From Terriglobia bacterium (GTDB taxonomy: Bacteria; Acidobacteriota; Terriglobia; Bryobacterales; Bryobacteraceae), in contig JAJPHN010000025.1 in assembly GCA_021325235.1 (NCBI GenBank), forward strand, positions 434,001-498,000: a DNA stretch of 64,000 nt. Reading direction: 5' to 3'. Within the stretch, counting starts at the first letter, position 1; the number at the start of each line of letters is the position of its first letter. The notes under the pieces were generated by a model that saw nothing but the letters and a program-made list of their open reading frames with translations, was not told the origin of the DNA and ran no database searches. Positions 52,874 through 61,988 of the stretch are shown one piece after another. Position numbers and translations under genes: made by a program.

Positions 52874-52993
52874 AATTCAGCGCAAACTACATTCTGACCG
52901 GCGGCACTTCGAGGAACCGGCCGAATCACCTTCCGGATGTGCCTTATCCCGCTCTTCGGCAGGAATAACATCCAAATCGCTGCATCTGATTGT

Positions 52994-52999
52994 TATAAT
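52994..52999 (+). promoter_or_regulatory. Candidate -10 element for ispH operon
   Basis: A perfect TATAAT occurs 24 bases before the ispH ATG in otherwise GC-rich sequence. No convincing -35 is visible at standard spacing. It is the best core-promoter match ahead of the isoprenoid/hopanoid operon. Confidence 0.35.
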
Positions 53000-53017
53000 T
53001 CGGGCATAAGTCTTTTT

Positions 53018-54037
53018 ATGGCACCCATAAGTCTCGCCGACGACGTTACGGCTTCCAACCCGGTCCCGGCAGACCGGGCCGCCAAGAAAATCATACTTCT
53101 GAAGCCCCGCGGATTTTGTGCCGGGGTGGTGCGTGCCATCGACGTGGTCCGCATTTCGCTTGATCTTTACGGCGCGCCGATTTATGTCCGCAAAGAAATT
53201 GTCCATAACCGGCATGTAGTCGACGAGCTTCGCGCGGCGGGCGCCATCTTCGTGGAAGAGCTCAGCGAAGTACCGGAAGGCGCTCGTGTGATCTTCAGCG
53301 CCCACGGCGTTTCGCCTGCTGTTCGCTCCGAAGCAAAGGAGCGCCGGCTACAAGTGATCGACGCCACCTGTCCGCTGGTCACCAAGGTTCACCTGGAGGC
53401 GGTTCGTTTCGCAAAACAGGGCTACACGATCGTGCTGATCGGGCATCGCGATCACGATGAAGTGATCGGAACTCTTGGAGAAGCCCCGGAAAGTACGAAA
53501 CTTGTTTCCGATGTGGCCGATGTCGACCGCTTGCAGATTCCCGATCCGAATCGGGTTGTTTACCTGACGCAGACCACGCTCTCGCTGGATGAAACCAGCG
53601 ATATTGTGAAGCGGCTGCGCGAGCGTTTCCCGAATATCATCGGGCCCAAGACGCAGGACATCTGCTACGCAACCGAGAACCGGCAGCTGGCCGTCAAAGC
53701 AGTAGCGCCGCTTTGCCAGTCGTTGCTGGTGGTCGGGTCACAAAACAGCTCCAATTCGCGACGGCTGGTAGAAGTTTGTGAGAAGGCGGGAGTTCCGGCG
53801 TATTTGCTGGATGATTCGAGCGAAGTTCGTGCGGAAATGCTCGAAAATGTGGATACAGTAGCGGTAACAGCGGGTGCTTCGGCCCCCGAACATCTGGTGC
53901 AGGAGCTGATCGCGCATCTGAAGAGCCACGGCTACCACGAGCTCGAAGAGGCCGAGATCAAAGAGGAAGATGTACGTTTTACGCTGCCGGCGGATCTGGA
54001 GAGTTTCACGCCCCGGCTGCATACGGTGCGCGCCTGA
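53018..54037 (+). CDS. ispH: 4-hydroxy-3-methylbut-2-enyl diphosphate reductase
   Basis: A 339-residue [4Fe-4S] enzyme, last step of the MEP pathway, giving IPP and DMAPP. ATG 53018 follows the TATAAT; a longer frame from 52937 lacks support. The three cluster ligands are Cys34 (KPRGFCAGV), Cys118 (DATCPLV) and Cys216 (QDICYAT). The conserved HNRHVV and SAHGVSP are present, as is the C-terminal VTAGASAPEHLV. It begins a run that ends with the squalene/hopanoid genes five bases downstream, supplying their precursors. Confidence 0.95.
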   Translation: MAPISLADDVTASNPVPADRAAKKIILLKPRGFCAGVVRAIDVVRISLDLYGAPIYVRKEIVHNRHVVDELRAAGAIFVEELSEVPEGARVIFSAHGVSPAVRSEAKERRLQVIDATCPLVTKVHLEAVRFAKQGYTIVLIGHRDHDEVIGTLGEAPESTKLVSDVADVDRLQIPDPNRVVYLTQTTLSLDETSDIVKRLRERFPNIIGPKTQDICYATENRQLAVKAVAPLCQSLLVVGSQNSSNSRRLVEVCEKAGVPAYLLDDSSEVRAEMLENVDTVAVTAGASAPEHLVQELIAHLKSHGYHELEEAEIKEEDVRFTLPADLESFTPRLHTVRA

Positions 54038-54042
54038 GCGAT

Positions 54043-56139
54043 GTGCCAGTCGATCGAGAAACGATGAAGTTGAGCGCTCAAATTGACGATTTGCTAGGTT
54101 TTGCCGTTGGGGATGCCATCCGAAAAGCATCCTCGGCGCTGCTCGCCAAGCAAGCGCCGGAGGGCTACTGGTGGGCGGATCTGCGGGCGGACACGACGCT
54201 CGAATCCGACTACATCCTCATGGAGCTCTGGCTCAATCCGCCGGTCAACGGAGTCTGGAATCCGCCCACGCGCGGCAAGATCATGCGCGCGGTCGATTCG
54301 ATTCTCGCGCGTCAGTTGGACGATGGCGGCTTCAATATCTATCTGCACGGCCCGTCCGAAGTCAACGCTTCGATTAAGGCGTATTTCGCGCTGAAAGTGG
54401 CCGGGCTGCCAACGGCCGATGAACGCATGCGCAAATTGCGCGAGCGAATCCTGGCGCTCGGCGGTTTGCAGGCGGCCAACAGCTACGTCCGGACCAACCT
54501 GAGCCTGTTCAATCTGTTTCCGCGCGACGCCTGCCCCTCGATTCCGCCGGAAATCATCCTGCTGCCCTTCAAGTTCATCTACCAGATGTCTTCCTGGACG
54601 CGGGCCATTGTTCTTTCGCTTTCGATTGTTCACGCGGCCAATCCGGGGCGTCCGGTGCCGGCGGGATTCACGCTCGACGAGCTCTTTGTGCCGGGCGCTC
54701 CGCTCACGCCGCCGCGCGATAAGAAGCTTTTCAGCTGGCGCAATTTCTTCCTGCTGCTCGACCGCATGCTCAAGGCCTGGGAAAAGCTGGGCCTGCATTT
54801 CGTTCGCGAGCGCGCTACAAAAAAGTGCCTGGAATGGATGATCGAGCACTTCGAGGCCTCCGATGGCTTGGGCGCAATCTATCCGTCGATGCAGTACGCC
54901 ATCATGGCGCTCGATGTGATGGGTTATCCTCCCAATCATCCGCTGCGCGCTGAAGCGGAAAAGCACTTCAACTATCTGATGGTGGACGACGAGCGCGGCT
55001 TCTACATGCAGCCCTGCTTTTCGCCCGTATGGGATACCGCGATTGCGAGCTTTGCCTTAGCCGAAGCCGATACCGCTCCTGCCGACAAGCTGCGCCGTAC
55101 AGCGGACTGGCTGATCTCGAAAGAGATCCGGCGTAAGGGCGACTGGTCGGTGAAACGTCCCGATGCTGAGCCCTCGGGCTGGGCGTTCGAGTTCAACAAC
55201 GGGTTTTATCCTGACGTTGACGATACGGCCATGGTGCTGCTGGCGCTGCAAGGTCTTGAAGCCAGCGACACCGCTGCCCAGCGCGCCTGCATCAAACGCG
55301 CGATCGACTGGCTGCTCACGATGCAAGGCAAAGACGGCGGCTGGGCGGCTTTCGATGTCGACAACGACTGGAAGATTCTGAGCCATGTGCCGTTCGCCGA
55401 TCACAATGCCATGCTCGATCCGTCATGCCCGGATATCACCGGACGCGTACTCGAAGCGCTGATCGGTGCGGGTTTGCCGAAAACGCATCCGGCCATCCGC
55501 CGCGGTGTGGAGTATTTGCTCGGGGTGCAGGAAGCCGATGGTTCCTGGTACGGGCGCTGGGGCGTTAATTATCTCTACGGTACATTCCTCGCGCTGCGCG
55601 GCCTGCGCGCCGCCGGCCTGAGCGAAAATGAACCACCAATTCAGCAGGCCATCGAATTCGTGCGCGCTTATCAGAACCGCGACGGCGGCTGGGGCGAGAG
55701 CTGCTCGAGCTACGACGAGGGCCGCTTCATGCCAAATCCGAGCACTCCGTCGCAAACCGCCTGGGCGATTCTGGCGCTGCTGGCCGGAGGCGATACCCGC
55801 AGCGAAAGCCTGCACAACGGCGTGGATTATCTGGTCCGCACGCAGCGCGCCGATGGCAACTGGAACGAAGAGTACTGCACCGGCACCGGTTTCCCGCGCG
55901 TGTTCTATCTCGAGTACACCGATTACCGGCACACCTTCCCGCTGCTGGCGCTTTCGCAGTATCGCAAAGTAATGTCCGAATCGCCCGAACGGCTGGCCAC
56001 CGGTATGGCCGCCGGGACATCCAGCTTCTCGCGCTCGCGACGGGAAGAAGTTCCCTCCTACGCGCGCGCGTTCGACGCCTCCGCGGCGCCGATCGCTACA
56101 CCCGGTTTCCCACCTCTTTCGAAATCCGCGAACGTATGA
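54043..56139 (+). CDS. shc: Squalene-hopene cyclase
   Basis: A 698-residue membrane-associated terpene cyclase that folds squalene into hopene or hopanol. The catalytic acid motif DVDD lies at 391-394 in YPDVDDTAMV. Several QW-type repeats are visible (for example GDWSVKRP, KDGGWAAFD, RDGGWGES, ADGNWNEE). N- and C-terminal halves have normal length; a 40-residue Ser/Arg-rich tail extends the usual end. Start GTG 54043 or ATG 54064. Five bases follow ispH. Confidence 0.96.
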   Translation: MPVDRETMKLSAQIDDLLGFAVGDAIRKASSALLAKQAPEGYWWADLRADTTLESDYILMELWLNPPVNGVWNPPTRGKIMRAVDSILARQLDDGGFNIYLHGPSEVNASIKAYFALKVAGLPTADERMRKLRERILALGGLQAANSYVRTNLSLFNLFPRDACPSIPPEIILLPFKFIYQMSSWTRAIVLSLSIVHAANPGRPVPAGFTLDELFVPGAPLTPPRDKKLFSWRNFFLLLDRMLKAWEKLGLHFVRERATKKCLEWMIEHFEASDGLGAIYPSMQYAIMALDVMGYPPNHPLRAEAEKHFNYLMVDDERGFYMQPCFSPVWDTAIASFALAEADTAPADKLRRTADWLISKEIRRKGDWSVKRPDAEPSGWAFEFNNGFYPDVDDTAMVLLALQGLEASDTAAQRACIKRAIDWLLTMQGKDGGWAAFDVDNDWKILSHVPFADHNAMLDPSCPDITGRVLEALIGAGLPKTHPAIRRGVEYLLGVQEADGSWYGRWGVNYLYGTFLALRGLRAAGLSENEPPIQQAIEFVRAYQNRDGGWGESCSSYDEGRFMPNPSTPSQTAWAILALLAGGDTRSESLHNGVDYLVRTQRADGNWNEEYCTGTGFPRVFYLEYTDYRHTFPLLALSQYRKVMSESPERLATGMAAGTSSFSRSRREEVPSYARAFDASAAPIATPGFPPLSKSANV

Positions 56140-56194
56140 TCCGCCGCTTCCGGAACCCACGGCGGCATTGTGCGCCCGTTTTCGACGGGGCGCC

Positions 56195-57259
56195 TTGAGC
56201 GGTCCTCTCACGCTGGTTACAGGCGCGACTGGCTTCATTGGCTGGCATATTGCGCGCCTGCTCACCGAACGGGGACACCGGGTTCGTGCCCTCTGCCGGC
56301 CCTCCAGCCGCCTGCGCGAGCTGAGCGTGGAACGAGTGAACGGCGACTTGCGCGATCCCACCTCGCTGGCCGAGGCCGCGCGCGATTGCCGTTTCGTTTT
56401 CCACGTTGCCGCCGATTACCGCCTCTGGTCTCCCGATCCCAAGCAGATGTACGAGACCAACGTGCAGGGCACTCGCAATCTGCTTGAAGCTGCCGAGCGC
56501 GCCGGAGTCGAGCGCATCGTGTACACCAGCACGGTGGGCTGCATCGGGATGCCGCAGGATGGCATCGGCGATGAACAGAGTCCTGTTTCGATAGCCGACA
56601 TGAGCGGCCACTACAAGCGATCGAAGTGGCTGGCCGAGCAGGTGGCGCTCGAGCAGGCCCGGGCCGGTGCCCCGGTCATCATCGTCAATCCGACCGCCCC
56701 TGTTGGCGACCACGACTGGCGTCCTACGCCGACCGGCAACATCATCCTGAATTTCCTGCGCGATAAACTGCCGGCATTTGTCGATACCGGCCTCAACCTG
56801 GTCGACGTGCGCGACGTGGCCCGCGGACACCTGCTCGCGCTCGAACGCGGGCGTGTCGGCGAGCGCTATATTCTCGGCTGCGAAAACCTTACGCTCGAGA
56901 GGATTCTCGAACGGCTGGCCGCGCTTTCGGGCAAAGCCGCGCCACGGCTGCGGATTCCGTATGCGGTTGCGTACATCGCCGGCCTGCTGAGCACGGCGTG
57001 GGCAAACGTGAGCCGCCGCGAGCCGCTGGCCTCGATCGAAGCGGTTCGCATGTCGCGCAGCAAAATGTTTGTGAGCCATGCCAAAGCTGTCGCCGAGCTC
57101 GGTTATTCACCGGGTCCGGTGGACGACGCCTTCCTGCGCGCGATCGCCTGGTTCTCGGAGAACGGCTATGTGCCGTCCGCGAGTCAAGTTCATGCTCCGG
57201 TGGCGGCGATCCGAACCTCCGCCGTGCGAGAGGGAACTCCCACCCAGCCTCATCACTGA
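56195..57259 (+). CDS. hpnA: Hopanoid-associated sugar epimerase
   Basis: A 354-residue NAD(P)-dependent short-chain epimerase/dehydratase-like enzyme of the HpnA type. TGATGFIG gives the nucleotide loop near residues 8-15, and the YxxxK pair is in YKRSKWLAEQ. The PTAPVGDHDWRPTPTG segment is typical of HpnA. Only TTG or GTG-like starts exist: TTG 56195 (MSGPLTLV) or TTG 56168. Its role in hopanoid biology is only loosely known. The hpnG start overlaps its stop in TGATG. Confidence 0.85.
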   Translation: MSGPLTLVTGATGFIGWHIARLLTERGHRVRALCRPSSRLRELSVERVNGDLRDPTSLAEAARDCRFVFHVAADYRLWSPDPKQMYETNVQGTRNLLEAAERAGVERIVYTSTVGCIGMPQDGIGDEQSPVSIADMSGHYKRSKWLAEQVALEQARAGAPVIIVNPTAPVGDHDWRPTPTGNIILNFLRDKLPAFVDTGLNLVDVRDVARGHLLALERGRVGERYILGCENLTLERILERLAALSGKAAPRLRIPYAVAYIAGLLSTAWANVSRREPLASIEAVRMSRSKMFVSHAKAVAELGYSPGPVDDAFLRAIAWFSENGYVPSASQVHAPVAAIRTSAVREGTPTQPHH

Positions 57260-58026
57260 TGGCCATTCTTTATATCGCTGCCGAAGCGGCCGAGCTAAAA
57301 CCCTTTGCCGAGCGGCTTACCGGACTTCGCAAACTGAAGTGGCCGGTCGACTACGCCGCCGAAGGTGTTCTCGAAAGCCGCCGCATTCTGCTGGCCGCTA
57401 ACGGTGCGGGGCCGAAGCTCGCGGCTCAGGTAGTGGAAATCGCGCTGCGCGCGGCCATGGTGGCGGAGTTGTCTTCTTCGCGGTTGGAAGCCGTGGTCAG
57501 CACCGGGTTTTGCGGCGCGCTGGATCCGGCGCTGCGCGAGCTGCAGATCGTGGTTGCAAACGAAGTGCGCTCGCCTGAAAATACCGAATCGTTTGCCTGT
57601 ATTCCGGTTCATTCGGGAATGGCGTGCGTTTCGGGCCCGCTGCTCTCCGACGATCGCATTGCCAACGATGCTGCTGCGAAAAGCGAGCTGTTCGCCCACG
57701 GTGCGCTCGCCCTCGACATGGAATCGGCCGGTGTGGCCGCCCGCGCGCGCAAAGCCGGCCTGCCTTTTGCCTGTATCAAGGTCGTCAGCGATCGCGCGGA
57801 CGAATCGTTCCCGTTCGACCTGAACGCCATGCGGACGCCCGAAGGCAGGATCGCGCGTGGGAAAATCATAGTACACGCTCTTGGGCATCCGAATACGCTT
57901 CCCGCTTTGTTCAAACTCAAGCGCCGCGCCGAGGATGCTGCCAAAACTCTAGGGGACTTTCTTGTCGCAAGCAGACTTATTGCCGAATCCGGTGCTCCCG
58001 AAAGCGGAGAACCAGCCGCGCGCTGA
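57259..58026 (+). CDS. hpnG: Hopanoid-associated nucleoside phosphorylase (HpnG)
   Basis: A 255-residue member of the purine-nucleoside-phosphorylase/MTA-nucleosidase superfamily. HpnG releases adenine from adenosylhopane on the way to C35 bacteriohopanepolyols. GFCGALDPAL and the DMESAG purine-binding segment, and KVVSDRADE with the catalytic Asp, are visible. ATG 57259 lies in the hpnA stop. The adenosylhopane-forming HpnH is not in the window. The following dehydrogenase begins inside the hpnG 3' end. Confidence 0.83.
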   Translation: MAILYIAAEAAELKPFAERLTGLRKLKWPVDYAAEGVLESRRILLAANGAGPKLAAQVVEIALRAAMVAELSSSRLEAVVSTGFCGALDPALRELQIVVANEVRSPENTESFACIPVHSGMACVSGPLLSDDRIANDAAAKSELFAHGALALDMESAGVAARARKAGLPFACIKVVSDRADESFPFDLNAMRTPEGRIARGKIIVHALGHPNTLPALFKLKRRAEDAAKTLGDFLVASRLIAESGAPESGEPAAR

Positions 58027-59101
58027 GGCGGTGGATGTTCCCCGCCAGATGCGCGCCGCTGTTTACGTCGGCCAGCAACGTGTCGAGGTGCAAACCGTTC
58101 CCACGCCTGAGATCGGCCCCGGCGAAGTACTCCTGCGCGTGGAGACCTGCGGAATCTGCCATACCGATCTGAAAAAAATCGAGTATGATCTGCTGCCCGG
58201 GCCGCGCATTTACGGTCATGAAACCGCGGGCGTCGTGGCGGCCGTCGGTAAAGGAGTGACGAAATTTCAGCCGGGCGACCGCGTGATTGCGTTTCATCAC
58301 ATTCCCTGCAAGAACTGCTTTTATTGCGAGCGCCGGTTGTACGCGCAATGCGCCGTCTATAAGAAAGTGGGCATTACCGCAGGTTTCGAGCCGGCGGGCG
58401 GCGGCTTTGCTCAGTATGTGCGCGTGCTGGATTGGATCGTCGAGCGTGGCCTGGAGCGCATTCCCGAAGGCGTCTCGTTCGATCAGGCGTGCTGGGTTGA
58501 GCCGGTGAATACCTGCGTGAAGGCGGTCGATCAACTGAAAGTTCGCTCCGGTGATGTGATCGCCGTGCTGGGCCAGGGCCCGATCGGCCTCGTCTTTACC
58601 ATGCTTCTGCGGCGCGGGGGCGCGCAGGTTTTTGCTACGGACGGCATAGAATTTCGCCGCTCGCTGGCCGCGCGCTTCGGCGCGCGCTCATTCGATCCGC
58701 GCGATGGGCAATTCGAAACCGCAATCCGCGATGCGACGAACGGACGCGGTGCCGACGCCGTGGTTCTTGCCACCAGCGTGCCCGGACTCGTCGAACAGGC
58801 GCTGCGGATCTCACGTGCGGGCGCGAAAATTCTGCTTTTTGCGCAAACTTCGGCGAAGGAAAGAGTCGAATGTGCCGGCGCGGACATCTGTGTAGGAGAA
58901 CGCATGCTCTTTGGCTCCTACAGCTCCGATGTCGATTTGCAGGCGGAATCGGCGCGCCTCGTCTTTAGCGGCGAATTGCCGCTCGAAGAGCTCATCTCCG
59001 ATCGTCTGCCGCTCGATGCGATTGAGCGGGGCATTGCGATCGCGCAGCGGCCTTCGCCCCAATCTCTCAAAATCGTGATTCATCCACAGGAGCGGAACTG
59101 A
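57962..59101 (+). CDS. Zinc-dependent MDR alcohol dehydrogenase (first of two)
   Basis: A 379-residue medium-chain dehydrogenase. TTG 57962 is preceded by AGGGGA at six bases, so it overlaps hpnG by 65 bases; ATG 58049 would be the next start. Catalytic zinc is suggested by the Cys in TCGICHTD and GHETAG, structural zinc by four Cys in CKNCFYCERRLYAQC. The NAD(P) loop is GQGPIGL. Substrate unknown. Its translation is tightly tied to HpnG. Confidence 0.85.
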   Translation: MSQADLLPNPVLPKAENQPRAEAVDVPRQMRAAVYVGQQRVEVQTVPTPEIGPGEVLLRVETCGICHTDLKKIEYDLLPGPRIYGHETAGVVAAVGKGVTKFQPGDRVIAFHHIPCKNCFYCERRLYAQCAVYKKVGITAGFEPAGGGFAQYVRVLDWIVERGLERIPEGVSFDQACWVEPVNTCVKAVDQLKVRSGDVIAVLGQGPIGLVFTMLLRRGGAQVFATDGIEFRRSLAARFGARSFDPRDGQFETAIRDATNGRGADAVVLATSVPGLVEQALRISRAGAKILLFAQTSAKERVECAGADICVGERMLFGSYSSDVDLQAESARLVFSGELPLEELISDRLPLDAIERGIAIAQRPSPQSLKIVIHPQERN

Positions 59102-60214
59102 ATGCCGCTTACACTTGACACAAGCAACACCAATCTCGTAAGCATTCCACTTGACAGCCGCATGCAGGCGGCAGTTCTCTACGGACAGGAAGATGTGCGT
59201 CTGGAAACGGTGCCGATTCCATCGCTGGCAGCCGGCGAACTGCTCGTCCGCGTGCGCACTGCGCTCACCTGCGGTACTGATGTGAAGGTCTATCGCCGCG
59301 GTTATCACGCCAAAATGATCCAGCCGCCCGCGCTCTTCGGCCATGAGCTGGCGGGCGACGTGGTTGCGCTCGGCGACGGTATCGTCGGCTTCCGTCCCGG
59401 CGATCGCGTGGTAGCGGCAAATTCCGCACCCTGCGACGAATGCTTTTACTGCCGCCGCGGACAGCAGAACCTCTGCGAAGACCTGCTCTTCAACAACGGC
59501 GCCTATGCCGAATACATCCGCCTTCCCGAGCGCATCGTCCGCAAGAACACTTATCGCATTCCGGACGCGCTTTCTTACAAAGACGCTGCGCTGGTCGAGC
59601 CGCTCGCCTGTGCGCTGCGCGGTCTGGACGAAGCGAATGTTCGGCCGGGCGATTCGGTTGTAGTGCTCGGTCTCGGCCCCATCGGGCTCATGTTTGTGCG
59701 CCTTGCCAAAGCGGTCTATGATGCACGCGTCATCGCCGTCGCACGCCGCCGCGAGCAGATCGAACGCGCGCTCGAACTCGGAGCCGATGAGGGCGCTGCC
59801 ATCGATCGAAGCGTCGAGCTTTCCAACGACCGCGCACTCATTCGCCAGATCAAAGCCTTAACGGCAGGGCGCGGCGCCGACATTGTCTTTGAAGCGATCG
59901 GCCGTCCCGAATCCTGGGAGCTCTCTACCCAGCTGGTCCGCAAAGGCGGTCTGATCAACTTCTTCGGCGGCTGCCCGGCCGGCACCAAGGTCGGTCTCGA
60001 CACGGGCCTGCTGCACTACTCCGAGATCACCTGCAAAGCGTCGTTCCATTTCACGCCGTTTCACATCCGCCGCGCGCTGCAGCTGTTGTCGGATGGCTAC
60101 ATCAACGCCAAGCATCTGGTCACTCACGAGCAGCCGCTGAGCGAGCTGCCGCATGTGCTCCATGAACTAGCGCATCGCGGGAGCGGCCAGATCAAAACGG
60201 CCATTATCCCGTAA
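59102..60214 (+). CDS. Zinc-dependent MDR dehydrogenase (second of two)
   Basis: A 370-residue sorbitol/threonine-dehydrogenase-like MDR enzyme that starts directly after the first. Zinc ligands are indicated by TCGTDVK and GHELAG (catalytic) and by CDECFYCRRGQQNLC (structural). The nucleotide loop is GLGPIGL. An internal ATG at 59162 (MQAAVLYG) also fits. Two dehydrogenases in a row between hpnG and hpnC suggest a heteromer or consecutive oxidoreductions in side-chain synthesis. Confidence 0.85.
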   Translation: MPLTLDTSNTNLVSIPLDSRMQAAVLYGQEDVRLETVPIPSLAAGELLVRVRTALTCGTDVKVYRRGYHAKMIQPPALFGHELAGDVVALGDGIVGFRPGDRVVAANSAPCDECFYCRRGQQNLCEDLLFNNGAYAEYIRLPERIVRKNTYRIPDALSYKDAALVEPLACALRGLDEANVRPGDSVVVLGLGPIGLMFVRLAKAVYDARVIAVARRREQIERALELGADEGAAIDRSVELSNDRALIRQIKALTAGRGADIVFEAIGRPESWELSTQLVRKGGLINFFGGCPAGTKVGLDTGLLHYSEITCKASFHFTPFHIRRALQLLSDGYINAKHLVTHEQPLSELPHVLHELAHRGSGQIKTAIIP

Positions 60215-60224
60215 GAGCTGCCTT

Positions 60225-61139
60225 TTGCCGGTCGCCCGTTTACAACCGAAAGAGTACATTCAGCGCACCGGCGCGGAAAGCGCGTTCTATACAGAAGCCG
60301 AGGCGCTCGAGTACACGCGCTGGCTCGCCACGCATCACTACGAAAATTTCAACGTCGTCAGTTTTCTGCTGCCCAAAGAGCTGCACCAGGATTTCTACAA
60401 CGTCTATGCCTACTGTCGCTGGGCCGATGATTTGGGCGACGAAATCGGCGATACGGCGGAAAGCCTGCGCTTGCTCGCCTGGTGGCGCCGCGAACTCGAG
60501 GCCGTGTATCGCGGCGAGGCGGCTCATCCCGTGTTCATCGCGCTGCGGGGCACAGTGGCGCGCCACGCTATTCCGATCGAGCCCTTCGATCGCCTGATTC
60601 GCGCTTTCGAACAGGATCAGACCGTTACCCGCTACCGAACTTTCGACGACGTATTCGGATACTGTGTCAACTCAGCCAATCCGGTCGGCCATCTCGTGCT
60701 TTATCTTTGCGGTTATCGCGATGCCGAGCGCCAGCGCCTCTCCGATTACACTTGTACGGCTCTGCAGCTGGCCAATTTCTGGCAGGACGTAACAGTCGAT
60801 CTCAAGAAGGATCGCATCTATCTGCCGCTCGCTCTGTTCGAAAAATACGGCTACACCGAAGCGGATCTCTTCGCGCATCGCTTCAATGACGCGTTTCGCA
60901 AGGTCATGATCGAAGCGGTCGATGTCGCGCAGGATTTGTTCGAGCGCGGGCTGCCGCTGGTGGGGATGGTGAATCGACGGCTCGCGCTCGATCTCGATCT
61001 TTTCAGCCGCGGGGGCATGAAAGTGCTCGATAAAATCCGCACACAAAACTACAACGTGCTCGAAGCGCGCCCCGCCATCTCCAAACCGGAACGCATTCTC
61101 ATTCTTCTACGGAGTCTTCGGCGTCTGCTGCCGCTTTAG
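60225..61139 (+). CDS. hpnC: Squalene/phytoene synthase family protein, HpnC (hydroxysqualene synthase)
   Basis: A 304-residue trans-isoprenyl-diphosphate synthase-fold enzyme from a TTG start with AAGAG upstream. First Asp-rich motif DDLGD at 68-72, second region ANFWQDVTVDLKKDR. In known systems HpnC turns presqualene diphosphate into hydroxysqualene. The hpnD gene follows without a gap. Confidence 0.9.
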   Translation: MPVARLQPKEYIQRTGAESAFYTEAEALEYTRWLATHHYENFNVVSFLLPKELHQDFYNVYAYCRWADDLGDEIGDTAESLRLLAWWRRELEAVYRGEAAHPVFIALRGTVARHAIPIEPFDRLIRAFEQDQTVTRYRTFDDVFGYCVNSANPVGHLVLYLCGYRDAERQRLSDYTCTALQLANFWQDVTVDLKKDRIYLPLALFEKYGYTEADLFAHRFNDAFRKVMIEAVDVAQDLFERGLPLVGMVNRRLALDLDLFSRGGMKVLDKIRTQNYNVLEARPAISKPERILILLRSLRRLLPL

Positions 61140-61988
61140 ATGACGGTCGCTCAGTCGTATCAATACTGCGAGCGCATCGCGAAAGCGCGCGCCAAAAACT
61201 TCTATTATTCATTCCTGCTGCTCGACAAGCATCAGCGTGGTGCAATGTGCGCCGTCTACGCCTTCATGCGTCACTGCGACGATCTGAGCGACGATCCCGG
61301 CATGGATCTCTCCAAACGTTGGCAAGCCATCGCCGAATGGCGCCTCCAGCTCGATCGCGCCCTCGCCGGCGAGACCGATGCGCACGCCATCTGGCCCGCC
61401 TTCCACGCATCCGTCCAGCGCTACAAGATTCCTCATCGCTACTTCCACGAGATGATCGACGGCGTGCTCTCGGACCTGGAAACGGTTTCGATCAGAACGT
61501 TTGAAGAGCTGTACCAGTACTGTTACCGCGTCGCATCCGTTGTGGGTTTAACGGTGGTGCATATCTTCGGCTTCCGCTCGACCAAAGCGCTTATCCTGGC
61601 CGAGAAGTGCGGCATTGCATTCCAGCTCACGAATATCCTGCGCGATGTGCGCGAAGACGCCGAAATGGGCCGCTATTACATACCGGAAGAAGATCTGGCG
61701 CGCTTCGGCGTGACTCGAGAGCAGCTTCGCGCCGGCTGCGAAGACGACCGCTTCCGAGCGCTGATGCGTTTTGAAGCCGACCGCGCCCGCTCGTATTACG
61801 AAGTCTCCGCGCCGTTGCTCGATCTGATCAGTCCGAAAAGCCGCCGCTCGCTCTGGGCGCTCCGGGCGATTTATATGAAGCTGCTCGATAAAATTGAGCG
61901 ATCCGGCTATTCGGTCCTGACGAAGCGGATCAGCGTCTCAAAATCCGGCAAAATCGCCCTGCTTCTACGTGCTCTCCTGCCAAAGTAG
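61140..61988 (+). CDS. hpnD: Presqualene diphosphate synthase, HpnD
   Basis: A 282-residue synthase that condenses two farnesyl diphosphates into presqualene diphosphate. Asp motif DDLSD at 47-51 and a second one in LTNILRDVREDAEMGRYY. The start ATG follows the hpnC stop directly. It is the last gene of the operon. HpnE, the oxidoreductase that finishes squalene, is not present downstream. Confidence 0.9.
   Translation: MTVAQSYQYCERIAKARAKNFYYSFLLLDKHQRGAMCAVYAFMRHCDDLSDDPGMDLSKRWQAIAEWRLQLDRALAGETDAHAIWPAFHASVQRYKIPHRYFHEMIDGVLSDLETVSIRTFEELYQYCYRVASVVGLTVVHIFGFRSTKALILAEKCGIAFQLTNILRDVREDAEMGRYYIPEEDLARFGVTREQLRAGCEDDRFRALMRFEADRARSYYEVSAPLLDLISPKSRRSLWALRAIYMKLLDKIERSGYSVLTKRISVSKSGKIALLLRALLPK

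Follow-up and report, generated by a model that had tools for sequence, protein, structure and literature searches.

Which enzyme reduces ribosylhopane to bacteriohopanetetrol (BHT)? The reductase that completes BHT is a gap in the pathway to hopanoids, sterol-like lipids of bacterial membranes that also serve as molecular fossils. A 2025 paper describes the enzyme, in its passage on this step, as "not yet established" (PMC12583986), which bears out the statement of the original prediction for this locus that the reduction has no assigned gene. The locus lies in a 64,000-nucleotide stretch of the genome of a Terriglobia bacterium from soil (contig JAJPHN010000025.1, positions 434,001 to 498,000), referred to as a whole as the window. 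Here a putative hpnG is followed by two genes for zinc-dependent medium-chain dehydrogenases (MDRs), named MDR1 and MDR2 below. Because its gene order is conserved and it co-occurs with hopanoid genes in two phyla, MDR1 very likely serves C35 hopanoid synthesis. That one of the two enzymes is the ribosylhopane reductase, as proposed from the sequence, has in our estimate slightly less than an even chance.

Conserved order of hpnG, MDR1, and MDR2

The three genes occupy positions 57,259-60,214 of the forward strand, as originally predicted: hpnG at 57259..58026, MDR1 at 57962..59101, and MDR2 at 59102..60214. The ATG codon of MDR2 follows the stop codon of MDR1 directly, so the two genes abut as proposed. 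The further proposal that MDR1 begins inside hpnG depends on its true start: it holds if this is the TTG codon at 57962, which has an AGGGGA-like site just upstream, and fails for the alternatives GTG 58031 and ATG 58049, both of which are downstream of the hpnG stop codon (58024-58026). In the alignment with relatives the invariant columns of MDR1 start at M30, the ATG at 58049, and the conservation of MDR2 starts at M21. The run around these genes is wider than the three originally described. Open reading frame (ORF) calls give eight forward-strand genes, ispH-shc-hpnA-hpnG-MDR1-MDR2-hpnC-hpnD, with intergenic gaps of no more than 28 nucleotides.

The hpnG ORF encodes a putative adenosylhopane phosphorylase/nucleosidase. 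Its best NCBIfam match, to the HpnG family TIGR03468, scores 128.7 bits, which is below the curated cut-off of 187.1; in the 149-genome phylum sample described below, no match to this profile exceeds the cut-off. We keep the name hpnG because of this best profile match and the position of the ORF, in a C35 hopanoid cluster with hpnA on one side and MDR1 on the other; the original identification thus stands by match and context and not by score.

A scan of a genome contig collection with the MDR1 alignment gave at least 591 pattern matches and at least 535 confirmed relatives, of which we examined the best 80. Since this choice favors orthologues, the counts show a stable context rather than an exclusive one. 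MDR2 directly follows MDR1 in all 78 readable loci (in one, L242, it has an internal stop), and in 65 of 69 loci hpnC or hpnD comes next after MDR2. hpnG is immediately upstream of MDR1 in 57 of the 71 loci with enough sequence; in eight of the 14 others it is found elsewhere in the locus. At least one hpn gene is present in 78 of the 80 loci, and 27 of 30 genomes tested from this set are positive for HpnH. The order hpnG-MDR-MDR is therefore common among close relatives, with the exception of a family that lacks hpnG at this place (see below). One locus (L214), a hopanoid cluster near those of Bryobacteraceae, is filed as Bordetella parapertussis and probably represents a mislabeled metagenome bin.

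The gene pair appears to have been noted already in 2017, a match that we make mainly by position. In their passages on acidobacterial hopanoid clusters, Sinninghe Damste et al. (2017; PMC5462960) list two genes of no known function, ug1 after hpnA-hpnG and ug2 before hpnC, the latter frequently entered in annotations as a ~350-residue Zn-binding alcohol dehydrogenase. MDR1 corresponds to ug1 by position, and MDR2 to ug2 by position and description. Those passages give no function, no ug1 product, no second phylum, and no difference in cofactor.

Distribution across Acidobacteriota

In a sample of 149 genomes of the window's phylum, Acidobacteriota, full-length matches to MDR1 fall into two groups: 20 genomes score at least 332.6 bits, and the next match only 199.8 bits. 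Defining orthologues by at least 45% identity and at least 332.6 bits, we find MDR1 in 20 of the 36 genomes with squalene-hopene cyclase and in none of the 113 without it. With the family as the unit, MDR1 occurs in five of 13 cyclase-positive and none of 51 cyclase-negative families (P = 1.7e-4, Fisher's test), a count that presumes 64 families from the highest label seen (f64), as not every genome was listed. By way of control, 45 genomes have MDR matches of other kinds only, and 13 of them are cyclase-positive. HpnH scores above the cut-off in 35 genomes; G113 is the only cyclase-positive genome without it, yet it carries MDR1. All 20 MDR1 genomes thus have the cyclase, 19 of them have HpnH as well, and every one carries MDR2 at 50% identity or more. 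Two partial matches at contig ends, with 45% identity over 166 residues (G145) and 39% identity (G003), were rejected as MDR1: both fall outside the MDR1 clade, and both genomes are cyclase-negative.

The HpnH scores of this sample form two groups, of 450-558 and 331-386 bits. MDR1 mostly accompanies the higher-scoring group; G066, a cyclase-positive genome in which the MDR pair is separate from the hpn cluster, belongs to the lower one. Intermediate or low HpnH scores are also seen in the tested genomes from the best 80 relatives and in the second phylum.

A second phylum

One MDR1 relative (L260) comes from a second phylum, probably Armatimonadota. Among 151 genomes sampled from this phylum, 17 have MDR1-clade matches of at least 382 bits, and two further matches are weak. 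HpnH is above its cut-off in 30 of the 151 genomes and the cyclase in 28. HpnH is found in 14 of the 17 MDR1 genomes versus 16 of the 134 others (P = 3.5e-9, Fisher's test, uncorrected for ancestry); 13 of the 17 have the cyclase, and G298 has HpnH only. MDR1 and HpnH are on separate contigs in 13 of the 14 genomes, and ~73 kb apart on a single contig in G349. No hpnG-like ORF was seen in the stretches around the second-phylum MDR pair. The link of MDR1 to hopanoid genes thus persists even where it is no longer linked to hpnG.

The two MDR genes are neighbors in 16 of the 17 genomes, in 15 directly and in G458 with an intervening open frame, with MDR1 standing alone in G328; in six genomes hpnD or hpnC-hpnD is close to the pair. 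The hpnH clusters of this phylum mostly follow the order shc-hpnH-hpnA-ispH-like-hpnG, in whole or in part. The hpnH loci of 20 of the 30 HpnH-positive genomes were mapped: hpnG occurs in 10 of the 12 that carry MDR1 and in four of the eight that do not. The IspH-like gene between hpnA and hpnG (L402-L411, L414, L418, L420, and L421) encodes a protein ~30% identical to the window's IspH.

The original prediction had named a hopanoid-only distribution as support for its proposal. In the Acidobacteriota sampled, MDR1 was found only together with the cyclase, and in the second phylum it is enriched with HpnH; MDR2 has relatives in four cyclase-negative genomes and so is not restricted to hopanoid genomes.

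Conserved residues and cofactor motifs

Both proteins contain the Pfam domains ADH_N and ADH_zinc_N above gathering scores, which places them in the MDR family, and they share 32% identity. A tree of 255 MDRs unites 103 MDR1 sequences from both phyla in a clade with a support of 0.996. The grouping of MDR2 is weaker (0.549) and takes in four relatives from G132, G159, G165, and G166. The alignments of phylum-sample sequences took in 18 of the 20 MDR1 and 19 of the 26 MDR2-like sequences. In G356 and G380 the two genes seem to be fused, a reading that we rejected because the supposed fusion is a long open frame that overlaps MDR1 where the DNA is GC-rich.

We counted residues over sequences of at least 300 residues that are at least 40% identical and whose aligned piece is free of stops: 89 MDR1 and 91 MDR2 sequences from 98 acidobacterial loci (four of them with MDR2 only), 13 of the 17 MDR1 and all 16 MDR2 sequences from the second phylum, and the window's own two. 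The zinc ligands of MDR1 are kept in 103 of 103 sequences at the positions checked. In MDR2, C57 is kept in 105 of 108 and the remaining positions in all 108. Both enzymes have the catalytic zinc ligands and the four-cysteine structural lobe, roles that we take these positions to have. Across both phyla, MDR1 carries Asp227 in 100 of 103 sequences, with Glu in the other three, and MDR2 carries Arg216 in 101 of 108. The intact zinc and NAD(P) motifs originally reported for both genes are thus confirmed and are conserved among relatives. If, as we assume, Asp227 marks a preference for NAD and Arg216 one for NADP, MDR1 would be an NAD-type and MDR2 an NADP-type enzyme.

Given these features, the pair could be a redox module that acts on the side chain of C35 hopanoids. 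The likeliest reaction is the one that follows HpnG: ribosylhopane in its ring-opened form would bear a C35 aldehyde, and the active site of an MDR, with its bound zinc, would pass hydride from NAD(P)H to this aldehyde to yield BHT. A reductase of this kind agrees with the position behind hpnG, with the class of enzyme, and with the step still to be filled. Its substrate, direction, and cofactor preference are what we infer, as is the choice between the two candidates, where the distribution would favor MDR1 and the NADP-type motif MDR2.

Possible alternative roles of the gene pair

Several observations weigh against the reductase reading, and they come from linkage, from likely hopanoid producers that lack an MDR, and from the presence of two enzymes. 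With regard to linkage, MDR1 and MDR2 adjoin in 12 of the 20 MDR1 genomes of Acidobacteriota; in the other eight (G036, G049, G061, G094, G103, G112, G130, and G147) they are on separate contigs or at least 11 kb apart. Four of these split genomes were mapped (G036, G061, G094, and G130). MDR1 is beside hpnG in all four, with hpnA also beside them in G061, G036, and G094, while MDR2 is found with hpnC-hpnD in G061, G094, and G130 and with hpnD in G036. Family f28 (G037, G085, G113, and G122) has the order hpnA-MDR1-MDR2-hpnD, with no hpnG between hpnA and MDR1; weak HpnG-profile matches lie on other contigs in three of these genomes, and none was found in G037. Relatives of MDR2 with 52-54% identity occur in the four cyclase-negative genomes G132, G159, G165, and G166. 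Lastly, at the limits applied, neither the cyclase nor HpnH was found in three MDR1 genomes of the second phylum (G328, G357, and G435).

The pair could instead be only a passenger in the operon and act in polyol metabolism at large or in the branch that makes squalene (hpnC-hpnD-hpnE). MDR2 stays with the squalene genes in the split clusters, its close relatives reach into cyclase-negative genomes, and two of the three second-phylum genomes just named carry hpnD or hpnC-hpnD near the pair. Distant MDR tandems (~33% and ~43%), in the class of G132, likewise stand outside hpn clusters in cyclase-positive and cyclase-negative genomes alike. However, according to PMC5462960, expression in Escherichia coli has established the role of HpnC, HpnD, and HpnE in making squalene; MDR1 is absent from all cyclase-negative Acidobacteriota sampled; and the two second-phylum genomes with squalene genes near the pair may be incomplete. 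We consider a passenger role very unlikely. A link of MDR2 to methionine salvage was also rejected: in G132 the close relative is transcribed divergently from neighboring genes of the class II aldolase and HAD-like types, an arrangement not seen beside the relatives in G159, G165, and G166.

The arrangement hpnA-MDR1-MDR2-hpnD, with no hpnG or hpnC mapped in the cluster, is seen in one acidobacterial family (loci L156, L160, L164, and L165) and at L276. The genomes concerned have the cyclase, and all but G113 have HpnH.

A further point against the reductase reading is that 16 of the 36 cyclase-positive Acidobacteriota, likely hopanoid makers by this gene, lack MDR1. No common substitute oxidoreductase was seen beside hpnG in these lineages, on the basis of ORF similarity and visual inspection alone; in one such genome a luciferase-like oxidoreductase adjoins hpnG. 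What does adjoin hpnG in eight of the 16 (including L193) is hpnA, and HpnA might itself be the ribosylhopane reductase here, with the MDR pair tailoring the side chain otherwise or supplying an intermediate. HpnA is found in second-phylum hpnH clusters both with and without MDR1, and it is proposed for the BHT step where PMC5462960 treats this step. However, in the other eight genomes hpnA was not mapped beside hpnG, by limited ORF calling. The same treatment cites evidence that HpnA is dispensable for BHT in Burkholderia cenocepacia and names BHT producers, such as Rhodopseudomonas, that have no hpnA. On balance HpnA is unlikely to be the reductase in these genomes.

One MDR1-less genome (G007, contig C102, locus L190), rated 100% complete, has the order ispH-shc-hpnH, with cyclase and HpnH, no MDR1 or HpnG match, and a weak MDR2 match. 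The contig ends ~2.4 kb past hpnH.

Bacteria beyond the two phyla also count against the reductase reading. Thirty-one plasmid or megaplasmid records carry hpnH, and no record of the plasmid collection matches MDR1 at 1e-60. At six of these hpnH loci (Azospirillum, Mycetohabitans, Cupriavidus, Roseomonas, Methylobacterium, and Streptomyces), no relative of MDR1 or MDR2 (at 1e-5) lies within 12 kb of hpnH, the rest of these genomes not having been searched. Apart from these bacteria, Chloracidobacterium thermophilum is reported, in the relevant passage of PMC5462960, to have BHT and its cyclitol ether and to lack ug2, the gene that we equate with MDR2. From this report, the six loci, and the MDR1-less cyclase-positive genomes, the MDRs do not appear to be present in every BHT maker.

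The last points against concern number and cofactor: BHT requires one reduction, two enzymes are usually kept, and their opposite cofactor motifs are conserved. The latter would also fit a redox epimerase, in which the NAD-type MDR1 would oxidize a hydroxyl on the side chain of either BHT or ribosylhopane, and the NADP-type MDR2 would re-reduce the ketone in the opposite sense, for example at C34 (R/S). Pairs of NAD- and NADP-dependent enzymes epimerize bile-acid hydroxyls in a similar way. The retention of Asp227 and Arg216 across two phyla argues for such a role, as do the adjoining genes (78 of 78 readable loci among the best 80 relatives and 16 of 17 second-phylum genomes) and the presence of MDR2 in every acidobacterial MDR1 genome. 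The patchy distribution would suit an accessory modification, and both a 34R and a 34S isomer of BHT are reported in the passage of PMC12583986 on its stereochemistry. On the other side, the two genes are apart in eight of 20 MDR1 genomes, no report of such BHT isomers in these acidobacteria turned up among the papers listed by a literature search, and the cofactor preferences are read from a motif by the rule assumed above. An epimerase pair is rather unlikely. Quite unlikely, in turn, is the fuller proposal that a two-enzyme, two-cofactor hopanoid module in at least two phyla oxidizes and re-reduces the polyol side chain and so sets the stereochemistry of BHT.

Relation to known enzymes

For the reductase reading, the nearest known activity is that of a Methylobacterium organophilum cell-free system that reduces ribosylhopane (Bodlenner et al. 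2015, cited in PMC12583986). This is the same reaction as proposed for the MDR pair, and its enzyme is not established according to the passage citing it. Among openly licensed literature, searched by titles and abstract starts, no assignment of the step from ribosylhopane to BHT to an MDR was found.

In profile comparisons, both proteins resemble the NADP(H)-dependent ketose reductase 1e3j over most of their length (8e-53 for MDR1 and 1.3e-58 for MDR2) and the sorbitol dehydrogenases 1pl6 and 3qe3; xylitol dehydrogenase 7y9p is among the matches of MDR1 only. The best match of MDR1 is 4ej6, a putative zinc-binding dehydrogenase (1.6e-53). The pair differs from these polyol enzymes in that the MDR1 sequences group apart as a well-supported clade and those of MDR2 as a weaker one, in trees that held no characterized enzyme. 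The best NCBIfam matches of both are IolM (scyllo-inosose 3-dehydrogenase) and L-threonine 3-dehydrogenase. Membership in either family was rejected, as MDR1 and MDR2 score 156.4 and 168.4 bits against a cut-off of 450 for IolM, and 126.9 and 162 bits against a cut-off of 458.35 for threonine 3-dehydrogenase (tdh TIGR00692). Overall, scores for families of this type range over 127-168 bits, against cut-offs of 380-458.

Neighboring genes in the window

The remaining genes of the run, all on the forward strand, are named from NCBIfam profiles. ispH, for an isoprenoid precursor enzyme, comes first (52937..54037; TIGR00216, 329.6 bits, cut-off 187.85), followed by shc, for squalene-hopene cyclase (54043..56139; TIGR01507, 662.4 bits, cut-off 431.1), and hpnA, for a hopanoid-associated sugar epimerase of the short-chain dehydrogenase type (56168..57259; TIGR03466, 460.4 bits, cut-off 367.65). 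Downstream of the MDR pair are hpnC, for squalene synthase HpnC (60225..61139; TIGR03464, 337.3 bits, cut-off 250.45), and hpnD, for presqualene diphosphate synthase (61140..61988), whose best match, TIGR03465 at 266.9 bits, is just under the cut-off of 278.6.

The only HpnH match above the cut-off in the window's genome is on a different contig (G000:C51). A third, distant MDR, 27% identical to MDR1, lies near this hpnH on the opposite strand (L191, G000:C51:52175-54716). A functional tie to this MDR (53706-54716 of the contig) was rejected, given its low identity and its place outside the MDR1 clade.

Significance

If the pair did act as an epimerase, it would provide a gene-level origin for the BHT stereoisomers that geochemists measure as biomarkers. 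More generally, the occurrence of a hopanoid-linked gene pair in two phyla does not close the gap in the pathway to BHT, but it makes that gap directly testable.

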